Part shown: positions 25,342 through 35,289 of the stretch, piece after piece | How the letters are laid out: every line of letters begins with the position of its first letter | How positions within the stretch are numbered: position 1 is the stretch's first letter | Assembly (NCBI GenBank): GCA_903863935.1 | Contig: CAIPDV010000033.1 | Coordinates: 1-43,993, forward strand | Direction: 5' to 3' | Origin: an uncultured Bacteroidota bacterium | Lineage (GTDB): Bacteria; Bacteroidota; Bacteroidia; JABEUT01 | DNA length: 43,993 bases | Program-made: the position numbers and the translations under genes | Notes under the pieces: model-generated | Told to the model about the DNA's origin: nothing | The model's input: the letters and a program-made list of their open reading frames with translations, nothing else | Databases searched by the model: none

Positions 25342-26727
25342 ATGTACATACAACAGATTTATACCGGATGCCTTGCACAGGCTGCCTATTACATCGAATC
25401 GGAAGGAGAAGCGGCCATTATTGACCCCTTGCGCGATATTCAGGAATATCTTGATATAGCTAAAGCAAGAAACGCAAAAATAAAATACATTTTTGAAACA
25501 CATTTTCATGCTGACTTTGTTTCCGGTCATATTGACATTGCAAAGAAAACCGGAGCTAAAATAGTGTATGGACCTACGGCTAAAGCCTCTTACAATATTA
25601 TTGTGGGTACCGATGGACAAGATTTTCCTTTGGGAAATGAAAAAATTCAACTCATACATACCCCGGGGCATACCAAAGAATCTTCCTGCTTTGTTGCAAA
25701 AGATGCGAATGGAAAAATTTATGCACTCTTCTCCGGGGATACTTTGTTTGTGGGCGATGTAGGCCGTGTTGATCTTGCAGCCAACGAAACCCTGACTACC
25801 GCAGATCTTGCATCCATGATGTTTGATTCGGTAGAAAAACTGAAAACATTATCGGATGACGTGATTGTATATCCCGGTCATGGTGCGGGTTCTGCTTGTG
25901 GTAAAAATATTGGAAAGGAAACTACAACAACTATTGGCGAACAACGTAAGAATAACTATGCGCTTCAACCAATGGATCGTGAAACATTTGTAAAAACAAT
26001 GGTTTCAGGATTACCAACCCCGCCAAAATATTTCTTCATGGATGCCAAAATAAACAGGGCAGGATATGAGGAAGATATGGACAGCCTTTTGGGCCATAAT
26101 GTAAAAGCACTTTCTGTAGATAATTTCATTCTGGAAAAAGAATCGGGTGCTTTTATTCTGGATACCCGAATGCCTATGGACTTTGCTAAAAGCCACGTTC
26201 CTGAGTCTATAAATATTGGGCTTAACGGAGATTTTGCCGTTTGGGTTGGAACCATAATTGACAATGTGCCACTCATTCTGGTTTGTGATGAGGGTAAAGA
26301 AAAAGAATCTGTTTTGCGTCTCGGACGAGTTGGTTATGATAAAGTAAAAGGGTACTTGCAGGGTGGTGTTAACGCATGGAATGATGCGGGATTAGCCGTA
26401 AAATCAATTCACTCCATAACCGCTGAAGAATTTGCCAGCCAATTAGAAAAAGGAAATGCACAACCTTTGGATGTGAGGAATGAAGGGGAAGTAGCAAATG
26501 GCATGGTTAAAGATGCAATTACAATCCCGCTTGGCAAACTTTCTGAAAAGGTAAACCTATTGGATAAAAATGCACACTATTATGTTTATTGCGCCGGAGG
26601 ATATCGCTCTATGGTTGGTTCTTCCATCCTTGAAAAGAATGGATTTACACACCTTACAAATGTGGAGGGCGGAATAAATGCAATTAAGAAAACAAGTGCG
26701 AAAATAGAGGTGCCTGCAATGGCGTAA
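25342..26727 (+). CDS. CstB-like persulfide dioxygenase with two rhodanese domains
   Basis: The 461-residue protein has an N-terminal metallo-beta-lactamase domain (about 1-240) with THFHADFVSGH, giving His54, His56, Asp58 and His63, then HTPGHTKES. It lacks the full second metal site expected of glyoxalases, as in ETHE1-type enzymes. Two rhodanese domains follow (about 260-350 and 360-455). The second has the normal active loop CAGGYRS; the first has Cys followed by acidic residues (VCDEGKEKES), an unusual loop. The layout matches Staphylococcus CstB, which oxidises low-molecular-weight persulfides and makes thiosulfate. It is probably cytosolic and part of sulfide detoxification. It converges with the PorT-like gene 25 bases away. 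Confidence 0.9.
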   Translation: MYIQQIYTGCLAQAAYYIESEGEAAIIDPLRDIQEYLDIAKARNAKIKYIFETHFHADFVSGHIDIAKKTGAKIVYGPTAKASYNIIVGTDGQDFPLGNEKIQLIHTPGHTKESSCFVAKDANGKIYALFSGDTLFVGDVGRVDLAANETLTTADLASMMFDSVEKLKTLSDDVIVYPGHGAGSACGKNIGKETTTTIGEQRKNNYALQPMDRETFVKTMVSGLPTPPKYFFMDAKINRAGYEEDMDSLLGHNVKALSVDNFILEKESGAFILDTRMPMDFAKSHVPESINIGLNGDFAVWVGTIIDNVPLILVCDEGKEKESVLRLGRVGYDKVKGYLQGGVNAWNDAGLAVKSIHSITAEEFASQLEKGNAQPLDVRNEGEVANGMVKDAITIPLGKLSEKVNLLDKNAHYYVYCAGGYRSMVGSSILEKNGFTHLTNVEGGINAIKKTSAKIEVPAMA

Positions 26728-30579: not shown

Positions 30580-30915
30580 TTACTTTTTCTTTTTGGCAAG
30601 AATATCTTCTCTTTTAGAGAGTATATAGTGCAATACGCTAGCGTATTGTGTAGAATCAAGGTGTGCTTTGCGGCCCATTTTAGGCATTACCTTCAACCAT
30701 TCCTCTTCCGTGTATTTTTTCAACTTTTTTAGGCGGTGGCAATCGGTGCATTGATCAATATATATGTTATACCCCTGTTTTAACTCCATTGTTGTAGTTC
30801 CTGCCCAATGCCCCTTTGCGGTTGCCAAATCAGTTTCATTTGGAATAAGGTAACGGGGAATACAACTTACCAAAACGAAAGACATAAATAACATTAATAC
30901 AGGCACTTTTTTCAT
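30580..30915 (-). CDS. Monoheme c-type cytochrome lipoprotein (mini-cytochrome A)
   Basis: I take the ATG at 30913-30915, which gives MKKVPVLMLFMSFVLVSC, a lipoprotein signal with Cys18. The frame is open five codons further (30930). The 111-residue product has one heme site, CTDCH (Cys56, Cys59, His60), Trp73, and Met77 or Met80 as possible axial ligand, then a Lys-rich end. From the heme His, the spacing to Trp, Met and a Lys-Ala pair is the same as in the small cytochrome at 32403, so the two look like paralogues. It lies divergent to the porin-like gene and downstream of a TAGATTTG box. It is probably a periplasmic, membrane-anchored electron carrier. Confidence 0.85.
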   Translation of the reverse strand: MKKVPVLMLFMSFVLVSCIPRYLIPNETDLATAKGHWAGTTTMELKQGYNIYIDQCTDCHRLKKLKKYTEEEWLKVMPKMGRKAHLDSTQYASVLHYILSKREDILAKKKK

Positions 30916-30979
30916 TTTTATTGATGCCAATTATTCAGCTATATCTGTTTATTTTAAATATACCAGTGATTGAATGGTG

Positions 30980-30987
30980 CAAATCTA
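30980..30987 (-). promoter_or_regulatory. -7 promoter box for mini-cytochrome A
   Basis: The minus strand reads TAGATTTG (TAnnTTTG), 65 bases before the chosen ATG at 30915, predicting a leader of about 60 bases. Confidence 0.35.
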
Positions 30988-31062
30988 ATACAATCCGTAG
31001 AATTTTAAAAAGCTGTCATCTGCTGATTACCTATCGTTTATTGATTATCCCGAATTTTAAAC

Positions 31063-31076
31063 GTGATAATAATCAT
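31063..31076. promoter_or_regulatory. Crp/Fnr-type box 1 (gTGATaataATCAt)
   Basis: TGAT-N4-ATCA palindrome in the divergent region between mini-cytochrome A and the porin-like gene. The Fnr consensus is TTGAT-N4-ATCAA; the core matches and the outer bases do not. Confidence 0.55.
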
Positions 31077-31110
31077 GCAAATCTTATGAGGACTGTCATA
31101 TTGCCCCTAT

Positions 31111-31124
31111 GTGATTTGAATCAC
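31111..31124. promoter_or_regulatory. Crp/Fnr-type box 2 (gTGATttgaATCAc)
   Basis: A perfect palindrome apart from the centre, 44 bases before the porin-like start. With flanks it reads TGTGA-N6-TCACT, one base from the Crp consensus TGTGA-N6-TCACA, so either Crp-like or Fnr-like regulators could bind. It is the strongest of the four boxes. Confidence 0.65.
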
Positions 31125-31168
31125 TTTTGTGACACCAAACATTTCAAACTATAAAAAATAAAAGTAAT

Positions 31169-32359
31169 ATGAAAACAAAAGTAAACAATGTATTTGCAAC
31201 GCTGATAATGGCGGGGATGCTGGTAACCCCAACCGCCAATCTATTGGCACAGGCAGATTCCACTTATGTACCTAATTCACCACAGGGCGGAGGTGAAAAA
31301 TTTTTACTGGCCGGTGAAGTATTCACTTCATTCCAAAGCACAAAAATTCCTGCATTTAATGGTATGCCCGAAATGAGATCCAACTCGTTTGGAACAGATC
31401 CATTGGGTGTAATGATTATGCCTTTGGTTAAAATTACCGACAGGCTGTTCCTTGATGTACAGTTTGGCGTAACCGCAAATCCCGGAGTTGGTGCTGGTGG
31501 AGGTGCTACCGCAGGCCTTAACGAAGCTATCATTTATTACCACATAGCAAACGGGCTTAATATTTTTGGTGGTAACTTTCAACCAAGAGTTGGTTTATAT
31601 GAAGGAATCCTTGATGATTTTACAAATCGTTATTGCTCCGACCCGGTTGGTATGGGAATAAGTGCCGGAACCCAATCTGGTGTTGGAATTCAGGGTGCTT
31701 TTCAATGCGGCTATTCGAAATTGCATTATCAGTTATATGTAGTTAACGGTCCGAGGTTATTAACCGATAGCGCAAGTGCCGGATTAATGGATTATGGCAA
31801 TTATACCGACAACAATGAAGGCAAAGCGTTTGGCGGTGAAATTGGATTCTTACCATTTTCCAATTCCAGTCTCGAAATTGGTGTTTCAGGACAATATGCA
31901 CCCACTACCGGCGACGCAGGCACTCCCTATGAAAAAATCAATAACACTACTATGGCAGCATACTTGAACTACTACCATACATTTAATCCGTTGATGATAC
32001 GCTTGCAAGGTCAATATGAATACACCAATACTTCCAATACAAAAGCAAACGCTTCAGACACGGTAAATCTGCTTCCAAATTTTACAAACACAATGACTGG
32101 ATGGTATGCTGGTGTTACTTTCCGTCTCAGCGGCTCATCCAACCGATTCCTCAGCAATTTGGAATTAGGCGCAAGGCTTGGTCAGTTAAAAGTTCCTACA
32201 GATGCCCCTTGGGGTGCTCAACCACTTAATCAGACAACCATTTGCCTTACTTACTGGTATACCTGGAAAACCCCGATAAATGTTGCTTATGATATTTATA
32301 CTCAATCAGGAATGCCTACTGCATCGGCAATTACTGTAAGAGGAATGTGGTTTTTCTAA
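31169..32359 (+). CDS. Porin-like outer-membrane beta-barrel protein
   Basis: The 396-residue protein has a signal peptide (residues 1-27, ending NLLAQ). It continues with alternating-hydrophobicity strands and ends in Phe-Phe (VRGMWFF), the usual C-terminal signal for outer-membrane barrels. Segments such as GLNIFGGNFQPRVGLYEG and LHYQLYVVNGPRL resemble phosphate-selective-porin (OprO/P-like) folds, but I cannot name a family with certainty. Two cysteines (in NRYCSDPVG and FQCGYSKL) may pair. The gene follows two Crp/Fnr-type boxes and leads into a small cytochrome 43 bases downstream. A role in bringing a respiratory substrate into the periplasm is inferred from context alone. Confidence 0.78.
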   Translation: MKTKVNNVFATLIMAGMLVTPTANLLAQADSTYVPNSPQGGGEKFLLAGEVFTSFQSTKIPAFNGMPEMRSNSFGTDPLGVMIMPLVKITDRLFLDVQFGVTANPGVGAGGGATAGLNEAIIYYHIANGLNIFGGNFQPRVGLYEGILDDFTNRYCSDPVGMGISAGTQSGVGIQGAFQCGYSKLHYQLYVVNGPRLLTDSASAGLMDYGNYTDNNEGKAFGGEIGFLPFSNSSLEIGVSGQYAPTTGDAGTPYEKINNTTMAAYLNYYHTFNPLMIRLQGQYEYTNTSNTKANASDTVNLLPNFTNTMTGWYAGVTFRLSGSSNRFLSNLELGARLGQLKVPTDAPWGAQPLNQTTICLTYWYTWKTPINVAYDIYTQSGMPTASAITVRGMWFF

Positions 32360-32402
32360 AATATCAGATCATAAAGTATAAAACAAATAAAATATTAGTA
32401 TC

Positions 32403-32681
32403 ATGAAAAACAGAATAAAAATAAAACTTACCTTAGCTACTATAGCTTTAGCAGTAGCTGGTTCAGCAATGATAAATGCTTGCAAAGTGCCTGAAGATAT
32501 TGCCAATAAATCGGGAGCCCAGTTATGGGGCGAAAACTGCAACCGTTGCCACAATGCTCCTGACCCACATACCTTCAGCGATGACCAATGGGATGCAGCA
32601 GTTGAACATATGCACCAAAAGGCTATCCTGACCGATGCCGAGGCCAAGAAGATCGTAGAATTCCTGAAGTCAGCCAACTAA
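32403..32681 (+). CDS. Monoheme c-type cytochrome lipoprotein (mini-cytochrome B)
   Basis: The 92-residue protein has a hydrophobic signal ending MINAC, a plausible lipobox with Cys27. One heme site CNRCH follows (Cys46, Cys49, His50), then Trp63 and Met70 in FSDDQWDAAVEHMHQKA. The heme His to Trp distance (13) and Trp to Met distance (7) are the same as in the mini-cytochrome at 30580. It is probably periplasmic and lipid-anchored. It is co-transcribed with the porin-like gene and ends 35 bases before a strong terminator. Confidence 0.85.
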   Translation: MKNRIKIKLTLATIALAVAGSAMINACKVPEDIANKSGAQLWGENCNRCHNAPDPHTFSDDQWDAAVEHMHQKAILTDAEAKKIVEFLKSAN

Positions 32682-32716
32682 ATATAGTTGGATCAGTAAC
32701 AATGAACTCTTAGTGT

Positions 32717-32745
32717 AAGGTGCGGGTCATACCCGCACCTTTTTT
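32717..32745 (+). terminator. Intrinsic terminator after mini-cytochrome B
   Basis: AAGGTGCGGGT at 32717-32727 and ACCCGCACCTT at 32731-32741 pair perfectly (11 bp, GC-rich) around loop CAT, followed by a T run to 32745. It closes the porin-cytochrome transcript. Confidence 0.9.
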
Positions 32746-32867
32746 ATTGCAGTTACTTACGGAAATATAACTCTTCAAAACAATTTGAGGTATTACGAAA
32801 AGCACGATTTTAAGATTTCCACAGTTATGAATACGCTAATTGCCCGAACGGCAATTTAATCACCCTC

Positions 32868-34085
32868 TTACTCCTGTTTTGTTCTGATTCTTGCTACTGC
32901 AATAAGTATTATTCCAATGAGAAGTAAGATACCTGCTCCCCATAAATACCATGGGAATAGCGGACTACTTGCAAGGAAGATATTTCCTAAACCTTGCAGC
33001 ATCAACAGTATTTCATTAATCAATATAGCTATGGTAAATATCATAAATGCGAACTTACTATACCTGCTTCGGATATCAATATATCCTTTTTGCGCAAAAT
33101 ATGCCATTACAAAGAGAGTTACAAAGCCCAGAAAAATCAGGTGCAAAAAACCCATTATCATTGGTCTGTTACCGAATACTAACACATTGATTGAATCAAC
33201 AAAAGTGAGGCTCTGCATTAATATCTTTACCAAAAAAGCCGCAATTGACAGAACAATCATGTAACGGATCGCCGGTTTAACCATTTTGAATTCCTTCATT
33301 AACAAAGGTGCAGCTATTACAAACCATACAAAACTGGAAAGAAGGCATAAGCTGCCGAATCCTGATACTATGCGAACCCACAATGTAGTTGCATGCCATA
33401 GAAATGTGAGGAACATGGTAGGAATAACAGAAACACATAGGAGCAGTGCAAACCAGTGCAGAGCTTTTCTCGCTTTCCAGTCAGTGTTTGAAGCTATCTT
33501 ATTATAGATTAAAGCAAAGACAGCAAGCGTAAAGAATCCATTGTATTGCAAATGCAGGTAACCAAACAATGCATCACGGTATAGGATTGCATTCAGCGAT
33601 TTAATAGAAAATAAAAAGGCCAGCATAATACTACCGGCAGATGAAAGCACCAGGTATATCAATGATGAAACAGAAAGGAGCTTAACAGTTCTGCTTGCAT
33701 TGGTCTTAAGAAAATCCCTGATAAAGACCCAAGAGAATACATAGGTAACAAGTATATTAACAAATGATACATATTCCGAAATGGTTCTGCATTTTTCAAA
33801 CGGTGAAGTAAACAAGGTTGCCCAACTGCAAAAGAAAATTGCTCCTAAAAGAAATTGATAGATCCCTTTATTGTAAAGCGTACCCGGAAGTTCATAAACC
33901 ATTAATACAAGTAACACCAACGTAGCCCAGCCGGCAAAAGCAAAGTGGCCGTGTGTATCTACCAGGCGATTATAATCGATCCAAGGAAGATCAAAAATGA
34001 TCTTGCTCCTCATCAATACCCCGAGCGATGCCACCAGGCAAAGGTTGATGATTGAAAGATTGACCCATATTTTCTTAGAAACCAT
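32868..34085 (-). CDS. Multi-helix membrane protein, heme-copper-oxidase subunit I-like
   Basis: The 405-residue protein is hydrophobic throughout with about twelve helices. Histidines sit in or near helices in a pattern recalling heme-binding quinol/cytochrome oxidase subunit I or NnrS proteins: VDTHGHFAFAGWATL (His45, His47), FGYLHLQYNGFF, FLWHATTLWVRI and MGFLHLIFLGFVTL. I do not see the full set of copper and heme ligands of an active oxidase, and it is shorter than catalytic subunits (450 or more). It ends in basic residues (RIRTKQE). It may bind heme or handle nitric oxide, but this is inference. It is divergent from two cytochromes, with Crp/Fnr-type boxes between. Confidence 0.72.
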   Translation of the reverse strand: MVSKKIWVNLSIINLCLVASLGVLMRSKIIFDLPWIDYNRLVDTHGHFAFAGWATLVLLVLMVYELPGTLYNKGIYQFLLGAIFFCSWATLFTSPFEKCRTISEYVSFVNILVTYVFSWVFIRDFLKTNASRTVKLLSVSSLIYLVLSSAGSIMLAFLFSIKSLNAILYRDALFGYLHLQYNGFFTLAVFALIYNKIASNTDWKARKALHWFALLLCVSVIPTMFLTFLWHATTLWVRIVSGFGSLCLLSSFVWFVIAAPLLMKEFKMVKPAIRYMIVLSIAAFLVKILMQSLTFVDSINVLVFGNRPMIMGFLHLIFLGFVTLFVMAYFAQKGYIDIRSRYSKFAFMIFTIAILINEILLMLQGLGNIFLASSPLFPWYLWGAGILLLIGIILIAVARIRTKQE

Positions 34086-34128
34086 TCCGGGGGTAATTTA
34101 AGGAGTTTACAAAACTAACCAGATTTAG

Positions 34129-34136
34129 CAAAAATA
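34129..34136 (-). promoter_or_regulatory. -7 promoter box for the HCO-like membrane protein
   Basis: The minus strand reads TATTTTTG (TAnnTTTG), 43 bases before the ATG at 34085. Crp/Fnr-type box 3 is centred 26 bases upstream of this box, where the -33 element normally lies. Confidence 0.5.
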
Positions 34137-34151
34137 GGCTTAATAGAGAAC

Positions 34152-34165
34152 ATGATAAATATCAC
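34152..34165. promoter_or_regulatory. Crp/Fnr-type box 3 (aTGATaaatATCAc)
   Basis: TGAT-N4-ATCA palindrome in the divergent region, on the side of the membrane-protein gene. It forms an outer inverted repeat with box 4 (AACATGAT at 34149-34156, ATCATGTT at 34184-34191). Confidence 0.6.
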
Positions 34166-34174
34166 GTTTAAATA

Positions 34175-34188
34175 ATGATTGTAATCAT
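34175..34188. promoter_or_regulatory. Crp/Fnr-type box 4 (aTGATtgtaATCAt)
   Basis: TGAT-N4-ATCA palindrome centred 23 bases from box 3. TATCTTCG at 34203-34210, one base off TAnnTTTG, follows at a distance matching that of box 3 from its own -7 box, so it probably serves the cytochrome gene at 34273. Confidence 0.62.
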
Positions 34189-34272
34189 GTTGTAAATTCG
34201 AGTATCTTCGGACTTTTGAAATTGGGAACGCGAATAAATAGATATCAAATATTATAAAGAGAATTATTTACC

Positions 34273-34701
34273 ATGAAAAATATTTTTAATAAACGAACTC
34301 CTCTAATTTTTACCCTCATTAGTGGAACCATTATTTTAATGTCATTTGCAACCGAAATAAAAATGCAGCAAAAGGGTCCTTGGGTAGCTCCGGCATCAGC
34401 CGATACTATTAAGAATCCTTTGAAAGGAAAACCGGACGCTGTTGCCGCAGGTAAAAAGATATATGCGCAGTATTGTGCAGTTTGCCATGGAGATAAAGGA
34501 AAAGGTGATGGTATTGCGGCGGCTGGGCTTAATCCGAAACCGGCTGACCACACTTCAGCAAAATTTCAGGCACAGTCTGATGGAGCTATATTCTGGAAAC
34601 TAACTACGGGAAGAGCCCCAATGGCCAGCTACGATAAAACACTTACTGTTGCCCAACGCTGGCAGGTACTTAACTTTATGAGAACTTTAAAAGCAAAATA
34701 A
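34273..34701 (+). CDS. Class I cytochrome c
   Basis: The 142-residue protein has a hydrophobic N-terminal segment (about residues 10-26) that serves as signal or anchor. A single cytochrome c domain follows with CAVCHGDKGKGDG (Cys68, Cys71, His72) and axial Met117 in TTGRAPMASY, ending in a C-terminal helix (RWQVLNFMRTLKAK). This is a standard periplasmic electron carrier fold related to the c-type domains of caa3/cbb3 systems. It is the first gene of a two-cytochrome unit, 49 bases before the next, and is expressed divergently from the HCO-like membrane protein. Confidence 0.9.
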   Translation: MKNIFNKRTPLIFTLISGTIILMSFATEIKMQQKGPWVAPASADTIKNPLKGKPDAVAAGKKIYAQYCAVCHGDKGKGDGIAAAGLNPKPADHTSAKFQAQSDGAIFWKLTTGRAPMASYDKTLTVAQRWQVLNFMRTLKAK

Positions 34702-34750
34702 CCCTTCTCTAACTAACTTTGTAATGCACATTCTTAAAAATATAAAAAAC

Positions 34751-35218
34751 ATGAAAAGCAGTATTTCAATTATAACCGTATCGTTGATGGTATTTTTCTT
34801 CTTTAGTTGTAACAACGAAAAGCAAGCTGATAATGCATCATCTGCGGCACCTTCAACAACGAAAAAAGATTCGGCGGCCGATAAAGGGATTGGTAAGTTT
34901 ACCAACATCCGTCTTACCCATCCATTAGATGACAGCATGGTTGTCCGCGGAAAAAACATTTACGATTCCAAATGCATGTCATGCCATAAGCTAAGCGACG
35001 AAAAGTTGGTTGGCCCGGGATGGAAAGGCGTTACTGATCGCAGGACCGCTGAATGGGTTATGAACTTTATTACCAATACCAACGTTATGTTGGACAGCGA
35101 CTTGGTTGCCCAGCAATTAATGGTTACCTGCGTTGCCCGTATGCCTAACCAAAACTTAGGTGATGACCAAGCCCGAGCCGTGCTGGAATACATGCGTAAG
35201 AACGACGGGAAAAATTAG
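34751..35218 (+). CDS. Cytochrome c lipoprotein of the type linked to clade II nos clusters
   Basis: The frame is open from 34724, but the ATG at 34751 gives a clean lipoprotein signal (MKSSISIITVSLMVFFFFSC, Cys20), so I use it. A Ser/Ala/Lys linker leads to the heme domain CMSCHK (Cys75, Cys78, His79). The run LVGPGWKGVTDRRTAEWVM follows, with likely axial Met131 in ARMPNQNL and the C-terminal helix DDQARAVLEYMRK. From memory this pattern resembles the small cytochromes next to nosZ in Bacteroidota, which pass electrons to nitrous-oxide reductase. No nosZ is in the window. An extra Cys127 lies four residues before the Met. Confidence 0.87.
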   Translation: MKSSISIITVSLMVFFFFSCNNEKQADNASSAAPSTTKKDSAADKGIGKFTNIRLTHPLDDSMVVRGKNIYDSKCMSCHKLSDEKLVGPGWKGVTDRRTAEWVMNFITNTNVMLDSDLVAQQLMVTCVARMPNQNLGDDQARAVLEYMRKNDGKN

Positions 35219-35261: not shown

Positions 35262-35289
35262 AAGGTGTGTCTTTGACGCACCTTTTTTT
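35262..35289 (+). terminator. Intrinsic terminator after the cytochrome pair
   Basis: AAGGTGTGTC (35262-35271) and GACGCACCTT (35275-35284) pair with one G-T wobble around loop TTT, followed by a seven-T run. It resembles the terminator at 32717 in its GGTG...CACC core. Confidence 0.85.

Follow-up and report, generated by a model that had tools for sequence, protein, structure and literature searches.

A nosZ-linked membrane protein with a predicted heme-copper oxidase fold and no catalytic ligands, in a cytochrome-porin cassette of Bacteroidia

What do four small monoheme cytochromes, an outer-membrane barrel and an oxidase-like membrane protein do together in a stretch of DNA that holds no terminal reductase? 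The question is raised by an island at positions 30,580 to 35,218 of a 43,993-nt DNA stretch from an uncultured Bacteroidota bacterium (contig CAIPDV010000033.1, positions 1 to 43,993; this whole stretch is referred to here as the window). The island consists of two divergent units that encode four monoheme cytochromes (CYT1 to CYT4), an OprO/OprP-type barrel (PORIN) and a 12-helix membrane protein (MEM). A first-pass annotation had listed cytochrome, porin-like and membrane genes and no terminal reductase in the window; each of these elements was recovered, and the window indeed lacks a terminal reductase. The main new element is MEM, which represents an unnamed family of dead heme-copper oxidase (HCO) proteins whose function we leave to the candidate readings weighed below. 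The features of the island are as follows.

30580..30915, minus strand: CYT1, a monoheme cytochrome (CTDCH) with a lipobox-like LVSC, 111 aa from ATG
31064..31075: TGAT-N4-ATCA box 1 of the CYT1/PORIN divergent promoter, 48 bp from box 2
31112..31123: TGAT-N4-ATCA box 2 of the CYT1/PORIN divergent promoter
31169..32359, plus strand: PORIN, 396 aa, a predicted outer-membrane beta-barrel of about 16 strands with an OprO/OprP-type fold
32403..32681, plus strand: CYT2, a monoheme cytochrome (CNRCH) and probable lipoprotein
32717..32741, plus strand: rho-independent terminator of the PORIN-CYT2 unit, an 11-bp stem AAGGTGCGGGTCATACCCGCACCTT and then a T-run
32868..34085, minus strand: MEM, 405 aa, 12 predicted transmembrane (TM) helices, HCO subunit I fold without catalytic ligands; conserved H45, H47, H178 and H315
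34153..34164: TGAT-N4-ATCA box 1 of the MEM/CYT3 divergent promoter
34176..34187: TGAT-N4-ATCA box 2 of the MEM/CYT3 promoter; its distance to box 1 is 23 bp, as in the box pair that precedes the norCB operon
34273..34701, plus strand: CYT3, a monoheme cytochrome (CAVCH) with an N-terminal signal or anchor
34751..35218, plus strand: CYT4, a monoheme lipoprotein cytochrome (CMSCH), with a further in-frame ATG at 34724
35262..35284, plus strand: rho-independent terminator of the CYT3-CYT4 unit, a 10-bp stem AAGGTGTGTCTTTGACGCACCTT and then a T-run

At the level of sequence, MEM scores 13.4 bits against PF00115 (COX1), below the cut-off of 34.8, and any match to this profile was seen in only one of 42 members of the MEM family. 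A profile of the MEM alignment found no match among PDB sequences, and local and profile alignments of MEM with NorB gave nothing convincing. By contrast, the AlphaFold model of MEM (predicted local distance difference test, pLDDT, 90.8) matches CcoN (8smr_E; VIA Z 35.2, 399 residues, root-mean-square deviation 3.2) and, over nearly the whole chain, NorB (4xyd_A; Z 33.3), with a Foldseek match to a second NorB structure (3o0r_B; E 2.6e-7). The predicted fold of MEM is that of a complete 12-TM HCO subunit I.

The ligands of MEM were mapped by helix order and motif spacing, with TM10 assigned by motif spacing; in a forced global profile alignment, H45 falls opposite the TM2 His of NorB, and the registers in TM6 and TM10 are uninformative. 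Among 55 MEM relatives, the invariant or nearly invariant polar residues are R26, H45, H47, H178, Q180, N182, K287, Q291, R307, H315 and E358, with H45 and H315 each conserved in all 55. In TM2, H45 stands eight positions ahead of W53, a placement shared with the low-spin heme ligand of CcoN. H178 (54/55) falls within the TM6 motif HLQYNG, matching HLWVEG of NorB, such that an Asn (N182; 55/55) occupies the position of the NO reductase (nitric oxide reductase, NOR) active-site Glu. In TM7, where an HH pair is expected, MEM has W230-H231 (W in 52/55, H in 38/55) and no HH pair. TM10 has a single His, H315, and Phe or Tyr at position 313 in 54/55 relatives, where catalytic enzymes have HxH; H315 is favoured as the low-spin ligand because of the Gly at +5. 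Because the TM7 HH is missing and TM10 has only one His, MEM is expected to hold no more than one low-spin heme in the usual manner, and the usual binuclear site should be impossible. The earlier label "oxidase-like" is therefore right for the fold and wrong for catalysis, since active-site ligands are missing. We also considered MEM as an NO reductase (cNOR, qNOR, sNOR, gNOR or eNOR) and rejected this assignment: HLQYNG is kept in TM6, but MEM has neither the TM7 HH nor the heme b3 ligand. A literature search, with most subscription papers outside its reach, found no name for the family.

We surveyed 296 Bacteroidia genomes that are at least 90% complete, using the 42-row MEM alignment at E 1e-10. 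MEM is present in 90 of these genomes and NosZ in 106; 74 have both, 16 have MEM alone, 32 have NosZ alone, and 174 have neither. Hence, nosZ occurs in 74 of the 90 genomes with MEM, as compared to 32 of the 206 without it (odds ratio 25; Fisher p 2e-28, with shared ancestry ignored). Gene adjacency counts irrespective of phylogeny, because it is independent of the shared-ancestry issue that affects the p-value: MEM and nosZ lie on one contig in 57 of the 74 genomes, and within 12 kb of each other in 50. Thus, the MEM family and clade II nosZ are closely associated across the class. NosZ removes the greenhouse gas nitrous oxide (N2O). To our knowledge, the electron route to the N2O reductase of Bacteroidota is unsettled, and a degenerate HCO that a sizeable fraction of Bacteroidota carry next to nosZ is a concrete candidate for the missing electron step, or for an accessory function in NO or N2O metabolism. 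Clade II nos clusters lack nosR (PMC9697520), and in one genome survey 53% of nosZ-type "terminators" belonged to the Bacteroidota (PMC12569097).

Scanning genome contigs with MEM yielded 43 relatives of the locus, all from Bacteroidota-type records, and gene clustering and tblastn revealed two gene settings. In the first, PORIN is found with MEM, CYT3, CYT4 and CYT2 as a cassette of variable orientation (L020, L024-L027, L030, L031, L040, L059). In the second, which is mostly from Chitinophagales, the order is norC-norB-hemerythrin-Rrf2-MEM-RIC, then nosY-F-D-L-B-Z, with a CYT4 relative immediately before nosZ. L040 unites both settings, with norC-norB-Rrf2-MEM-CYT4 near CYT2-PORIN-CYT3. NosZ, NorB-like, hemerythrin, Rrf2 and RIC proteins were assigned by Pfam and NCBIfam, and NosB by its HYIGM motif (PMC9697520), which is present in 17/17. 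Eighteen of the 43 loci have nos genes and 15 have nor genes, with 21 having either. PORIN is missing from the majority of MEM loci, and neither PORIN nor CYT2 was seen in any nos locus among the 43; CYT2 always adjoins PORIN wherever a locus holds both. Conservation of the neighbourhood in Bacteroidota, the check proposed in the first-pass annotation, is therefore borne out by a five-gene cassette that recurs in other Bacteroidia. The sixth gene of what had been called a six-gene island does not share in this conservation. The closest sister locus, L020, has no CYT1, PORIN being followed directly by an aminotransferase gene, and the few cross-matches of CYT1 at other loci are CYT2-family genes; for these reasons we place CYT1 outside the conserved cassette, as a local cytochrome that is probably a diverged CYT2 paralogue.

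CYT3 and CYT4 score clearly above the cut-off of Pfam Cytochrom_C and CYT2 barely so, and CYT1 is a weak match; overall the matches are weak or moderate. From the sequence we read lipobox-like N-termini in CYT1, CYT2 and CYT4, and a signal or anchor in CYT3. The plus-strand units had been described as closed by strong terminators, and both were found; those at 32717 and 35262 have the most pairs and the longest T-runs of all candidates in the region.

Is the island regulated together with genes of nitrogen-oxide metabolism? The box sequence TGATNNNNATCA has four exact copies in the 44-kb window, as compared to 1.25 expected in shuffles, and all four fall in the two divergent intergenic regions, which make up about 1% of the window. 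Hence, the boxes in the divergent promoters, paired at both as had been claimed, are not a product of chance. In the whole 3.76-Mb genome, only the island and the norCB operon have exact box pairs with a gap of 5-35 bases, whereas a reversed control pattern gave zero pairs in the same scan; the island MEM/CYT3 pair and the norCB pair are both spaced 23 bp. The norCB operon reads REC-Crp/tryptophanase/tryptophanase/norC/norB, with the box pair upstream. Allowing one mismatch, pairs 22-23 bp apart are kept at the MEM/CYT3 promoter of sister genomes (L020, L021, L023), and 22-bp pairs are found at CYT3 or CYT4 in L024, L025 and L027. The PORIN promoter has a 48-bp box spacing in both the window and L020 (12899/12947; one L020 box with one mismatch). 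Across 19 orthologous or norCB upstream regions, picked for their position upstream of these genes and not for boxes, there are 30 box sites, as compared to 5.5 in shuffles, and nine pairs at 22-23 bp, as compared to a mean of 0.017, with the nine including the two exact pairs from which the spacing was first suggested. Because exact tandem pairs are found genome-wide only at the island and the norCB operon, the island probably shares a low-oxygen/NO regulon with the NO reductase of the cell. The box type and the genes in its company suggest a response to oxygen or NO. In Pseudomonas, nir, nor and nos are activated by DNR, an FNR-like protein that responds to NO and binds the motif TTGATnnnnATCAA (PMC1274295); as in DNR/FNR-type regulons, boxes here lie upstream of denitrification genes that are probably co-regulated. 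The first-pass annotation had proposed an oxygen- or nitrogen-oxide-responsive electron-transfer module that matches no named operon, and the conserved neighbourhood, the norCB boxes and the nosZ linkage support this proposal, with the response itself predicted.

The REC-Crp protein that heads the norCB operon (L079 5424-6488) is, by its position, a candidate regulator, and a REC-Crp gene adjoins MEM in G009. The operon itself (L079:5424-11108, contig C122 of the same genome) is an unusual mix, in which a response-regulator-Crp fusion and two tryptophanase-like (beta-eliminating lyase) genes lead into norCB. Similar tandem pairs are found upstream of universal-stress and other genes in the relatives G009 and G025, pointing to a possible wider low-oxygen regulon in these genera. 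There are pairs 22 bp apart at L117:3639-3672, L117:7829-7862 and L118:5499-5532, and also pairs at L021:5190-5881, the first of which is spaced 82 bp, upstream of universal-stress or unrecognised genes.

Which reductases could the island serve in its own cell? No NosZ was matched in this genome (98% complete), as compared to 20 of 60 relatives in the same protein search, which was used in place of PF18764, a profile that was uninformative because it matched no control genome. The copper nitrite reductase NirK (TIGR02376) was not found; no search was made for NirS, NrfA or nitrate reductases. The genome has norC-norB on another contig, and its remaining HCOs are two oxidases. Its NorB-like protein has cNOR NorB as best PDB match (3o0r; E 1.4e-13), with several canonical ligands missing. 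In the NorB-like proteins beside NorC (L079:9729-11108 and 15 such proteins of the MEM loci), the TM6 FeB His and Glu are replaced (by Asn or Tyr, and by Val, respectively) in 16/16, and Met stands in place of the second TM10 His, again in 16/16; these proteins may be a divergent NOR type or may have a different activity. Since the genus of the window keeps the module without nosZ, it is a useful case for identifying the core function.

Our leading reading, which we consider an even call, is that the island belongs to a low-oxygen/NO regulon and serves in respiration as an electron-transfer module that feeds periplasmic nitrogen-oxide reduction. We infer that an activator of the Crp/FNR family would bind the tandem TGAT-N4-ATCA boxes, switching on both divergent units and norCB. 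MEM, as a former HCO subunit I that has lost its oxygen/NO-reducing site and has probably kept one low-spin heme b, would take electrons at the inner membrane from the quinone pool, most likely from menaquinol. Gene order suggests that MEM would pass them to periplasmic CYT4/CYT3, and the linkage to NosZ and NOR suggests that these cytochromes would in turn supply periplasmic reductases: NosZ in most Bacteroidia, and NOR here. PORIN and CYT2, found in some of the lineages, would extend the module to the outer membrane, perhaps as an anion channel for nitrite or nitrate. More tentative, and in our judgement more apt to fail than to hold, is the broader proposal that MEM is a new class of respiratory protein, an HCO subunit I turned into a quinol:cytochrome c electron supplier to clade II NosZ (and NOR) in many Bacteroidia, replacing NosR or NosGH.

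Several points weigh against an electron-transfer module that feeds nitrogen-oxide reduction. The passage of quinol electrons through a single low-spin heme is unusual, and heme binding by MEM is itself a prediction, made with a TM10 that was assigned by motif spacing. The box pairs at universal-stress genes fit low oxygen as well as NO. Lastly, the sister genomes G005 (96% complete) and G006 (99%) have MEM, CYT3 and CYT4, with PORIN and CYT2 also in G005, and in neither did we find NosZ, a NorB-like protein or cbb3, only aa3-type oxidases (one G006 match is a contig-end fragment). Because these two genomes hold the module without NOR and NosZ, neither reductase is obligatory for it.

An alternative that we regard as rather unlikely is that MEM is an accessory or maturation protein for NosZ or NOR, involved in copper or heme handling, or a membrane heme protein of the NO-stress response that, like NnrS, would bind or sense NO. 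The same clusters hold nosZ, nosB, nosL, Rrf2, RIC/ScdA and hemerythrin genes, and the Rrf2 family includes NsrR. The TM2 HxH of MEM, followed by FG(G)W, resembles what we take to be a motif of NnrS, a resemblance that we treat as a lead only. NnrS, too, is a membrane protein; it contains heme and copper and belongs to NO-responsive regulons (PMC1274295), but PF05940 is unmatched by the 42 MEM members up to E 10, and no MEM locus is among the PF05940 matches in 60 genomes. Moreover, MEM is kept beside cytochromes without NosZ and maturation genes in G000, G005 and G006.

It is improbable, in our estimate, that the island is instead a low-oxygen electron route to aa3/caa3 oxidases with no nitrogen-oxide role in this genus, the nosZ linkage elsewhere being ancestral. 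Oxygen is a common signal for FNR-type boxes, universal-stress genes of G009 and G025 have tandem boxes upstream, and aa3-type oxidases are the only HCO enzymes of G005 and G006; nonetheless, the only other exact tandem pair in the genome of the window sits upstream of norCB, and the class-wide association of MEM is with nosZ rather than with oxidase genes.

PORIN has no Pfam match. Its model (pLDDT 75.7, moderate confidence) has about 16 strands, and the best structural matches of this 16-strand barrel are OprO/OprP (Z 26.3 to 4rjw and 26.1 to 2o4v); the protein is a signal peptide followed by the barrel, with no CxxCH. Membership of PORIN/CYT2 in the Cyc2 family was rejected, since there is no fusion and AxPxFAR[QK][TY] before CxxCH is absent from all four cytochromes; a split cytochrome-porin arrangement is conceivable by analogy. 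Least probable, by a narrow margin, is a route to or from the cell surface, from quinol through MEM and CYT3/CYT4 to a CYT2 and PORIN outer-membrane conduit resembling a split Cyc2: the order CYT3-PORIN-CYT2 is kept in eight relatives, PORIN best matches the templates of the Cyc2 porin (PMC8406198), and G005 holds the module without NOR or NosZ, but the barrel is unfused, the Cyc2 motif is missing, OprO/P-type porins are common anion channels, the island has no multiheme cytochrome, and most MEM loci have no porin.

Other genes near these loci were also recorded. A few genes upstream of the island, at 25342-26727 of the window, is a gene for a 461-aa persulfide dioxygenase/rhodanese-like protein; it is kept in place in L020 with 91% identity, and the whole block is therefore syntenic. 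Upstream of the main cassette of L027, on the same contig, is a second, diverged CYT3-PORIN-CYT2 triad (L027:52-2006), followed by a MarR-type gene; a 944-aa heme-motif protein beside this second cassette was considered as a reductase and rejected, being a secreted SprB-repeat protein. In 11 loci (L040:4007-5839 and 10 others), a recurring neighbour of norCB is a protein of some 610 aa that neither Pfam nor NCBIfam matches. A second membrane protein, roughly 418 aa long and weakly matching COX1 (E 0.0016), is encoded within nos clusters at L033:13043-14299 and four other loci, where its gene follows that of a DUF1858/DUF2249 protein.

How does the island compare with known systems? Cyc2 is a fused cytochrome-porin whose porin part was modelled on the same OprO/OprP structures (PMC8406198); the island likewise has an OprO/OprP-type 16-strand barrel adjoining a monoheme cytochrome, but as separate genes, with two flanking cytochromes and no Cyc2 heme-motif. 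NnrS (PF05940) is similar in length to MEM and is a membrane heme/copper protein of NO regulons (PMC1274295), whereas MEM gives no detectable sequence-profile match to it. MEM shares with HCO subunit I (CcoN, NorB; PF00115) the predicted 12-TM fold and the conserved His of TM2, TM6 and, once, TM10, but is below the Pfam cut-off, lacks the TM7 HH and the high-spin heme ligand, and is shorter (about 405-420 aa). In the clade II (Sec-dependent) nos cluster of Bacteroidota, CYT4 relatives stand directly before nosZ and MEM often flanks it, although the genome of the window has no nosZ and the nos genes that PMC9697520 names do not include MEM. Finally, the island has the TGAT-N4-ATCA core of DNR/FNR-type regulons, and nor and nos are among the targets of DNR (PMC1274295). 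Unlike in those regulons, the island boxes are in tandem at a fixed 22-23 bp, and the candidate regulator is a response-regulator-Crp fusion; the tandem box with this spacing provides a searchable signature of the regulon.

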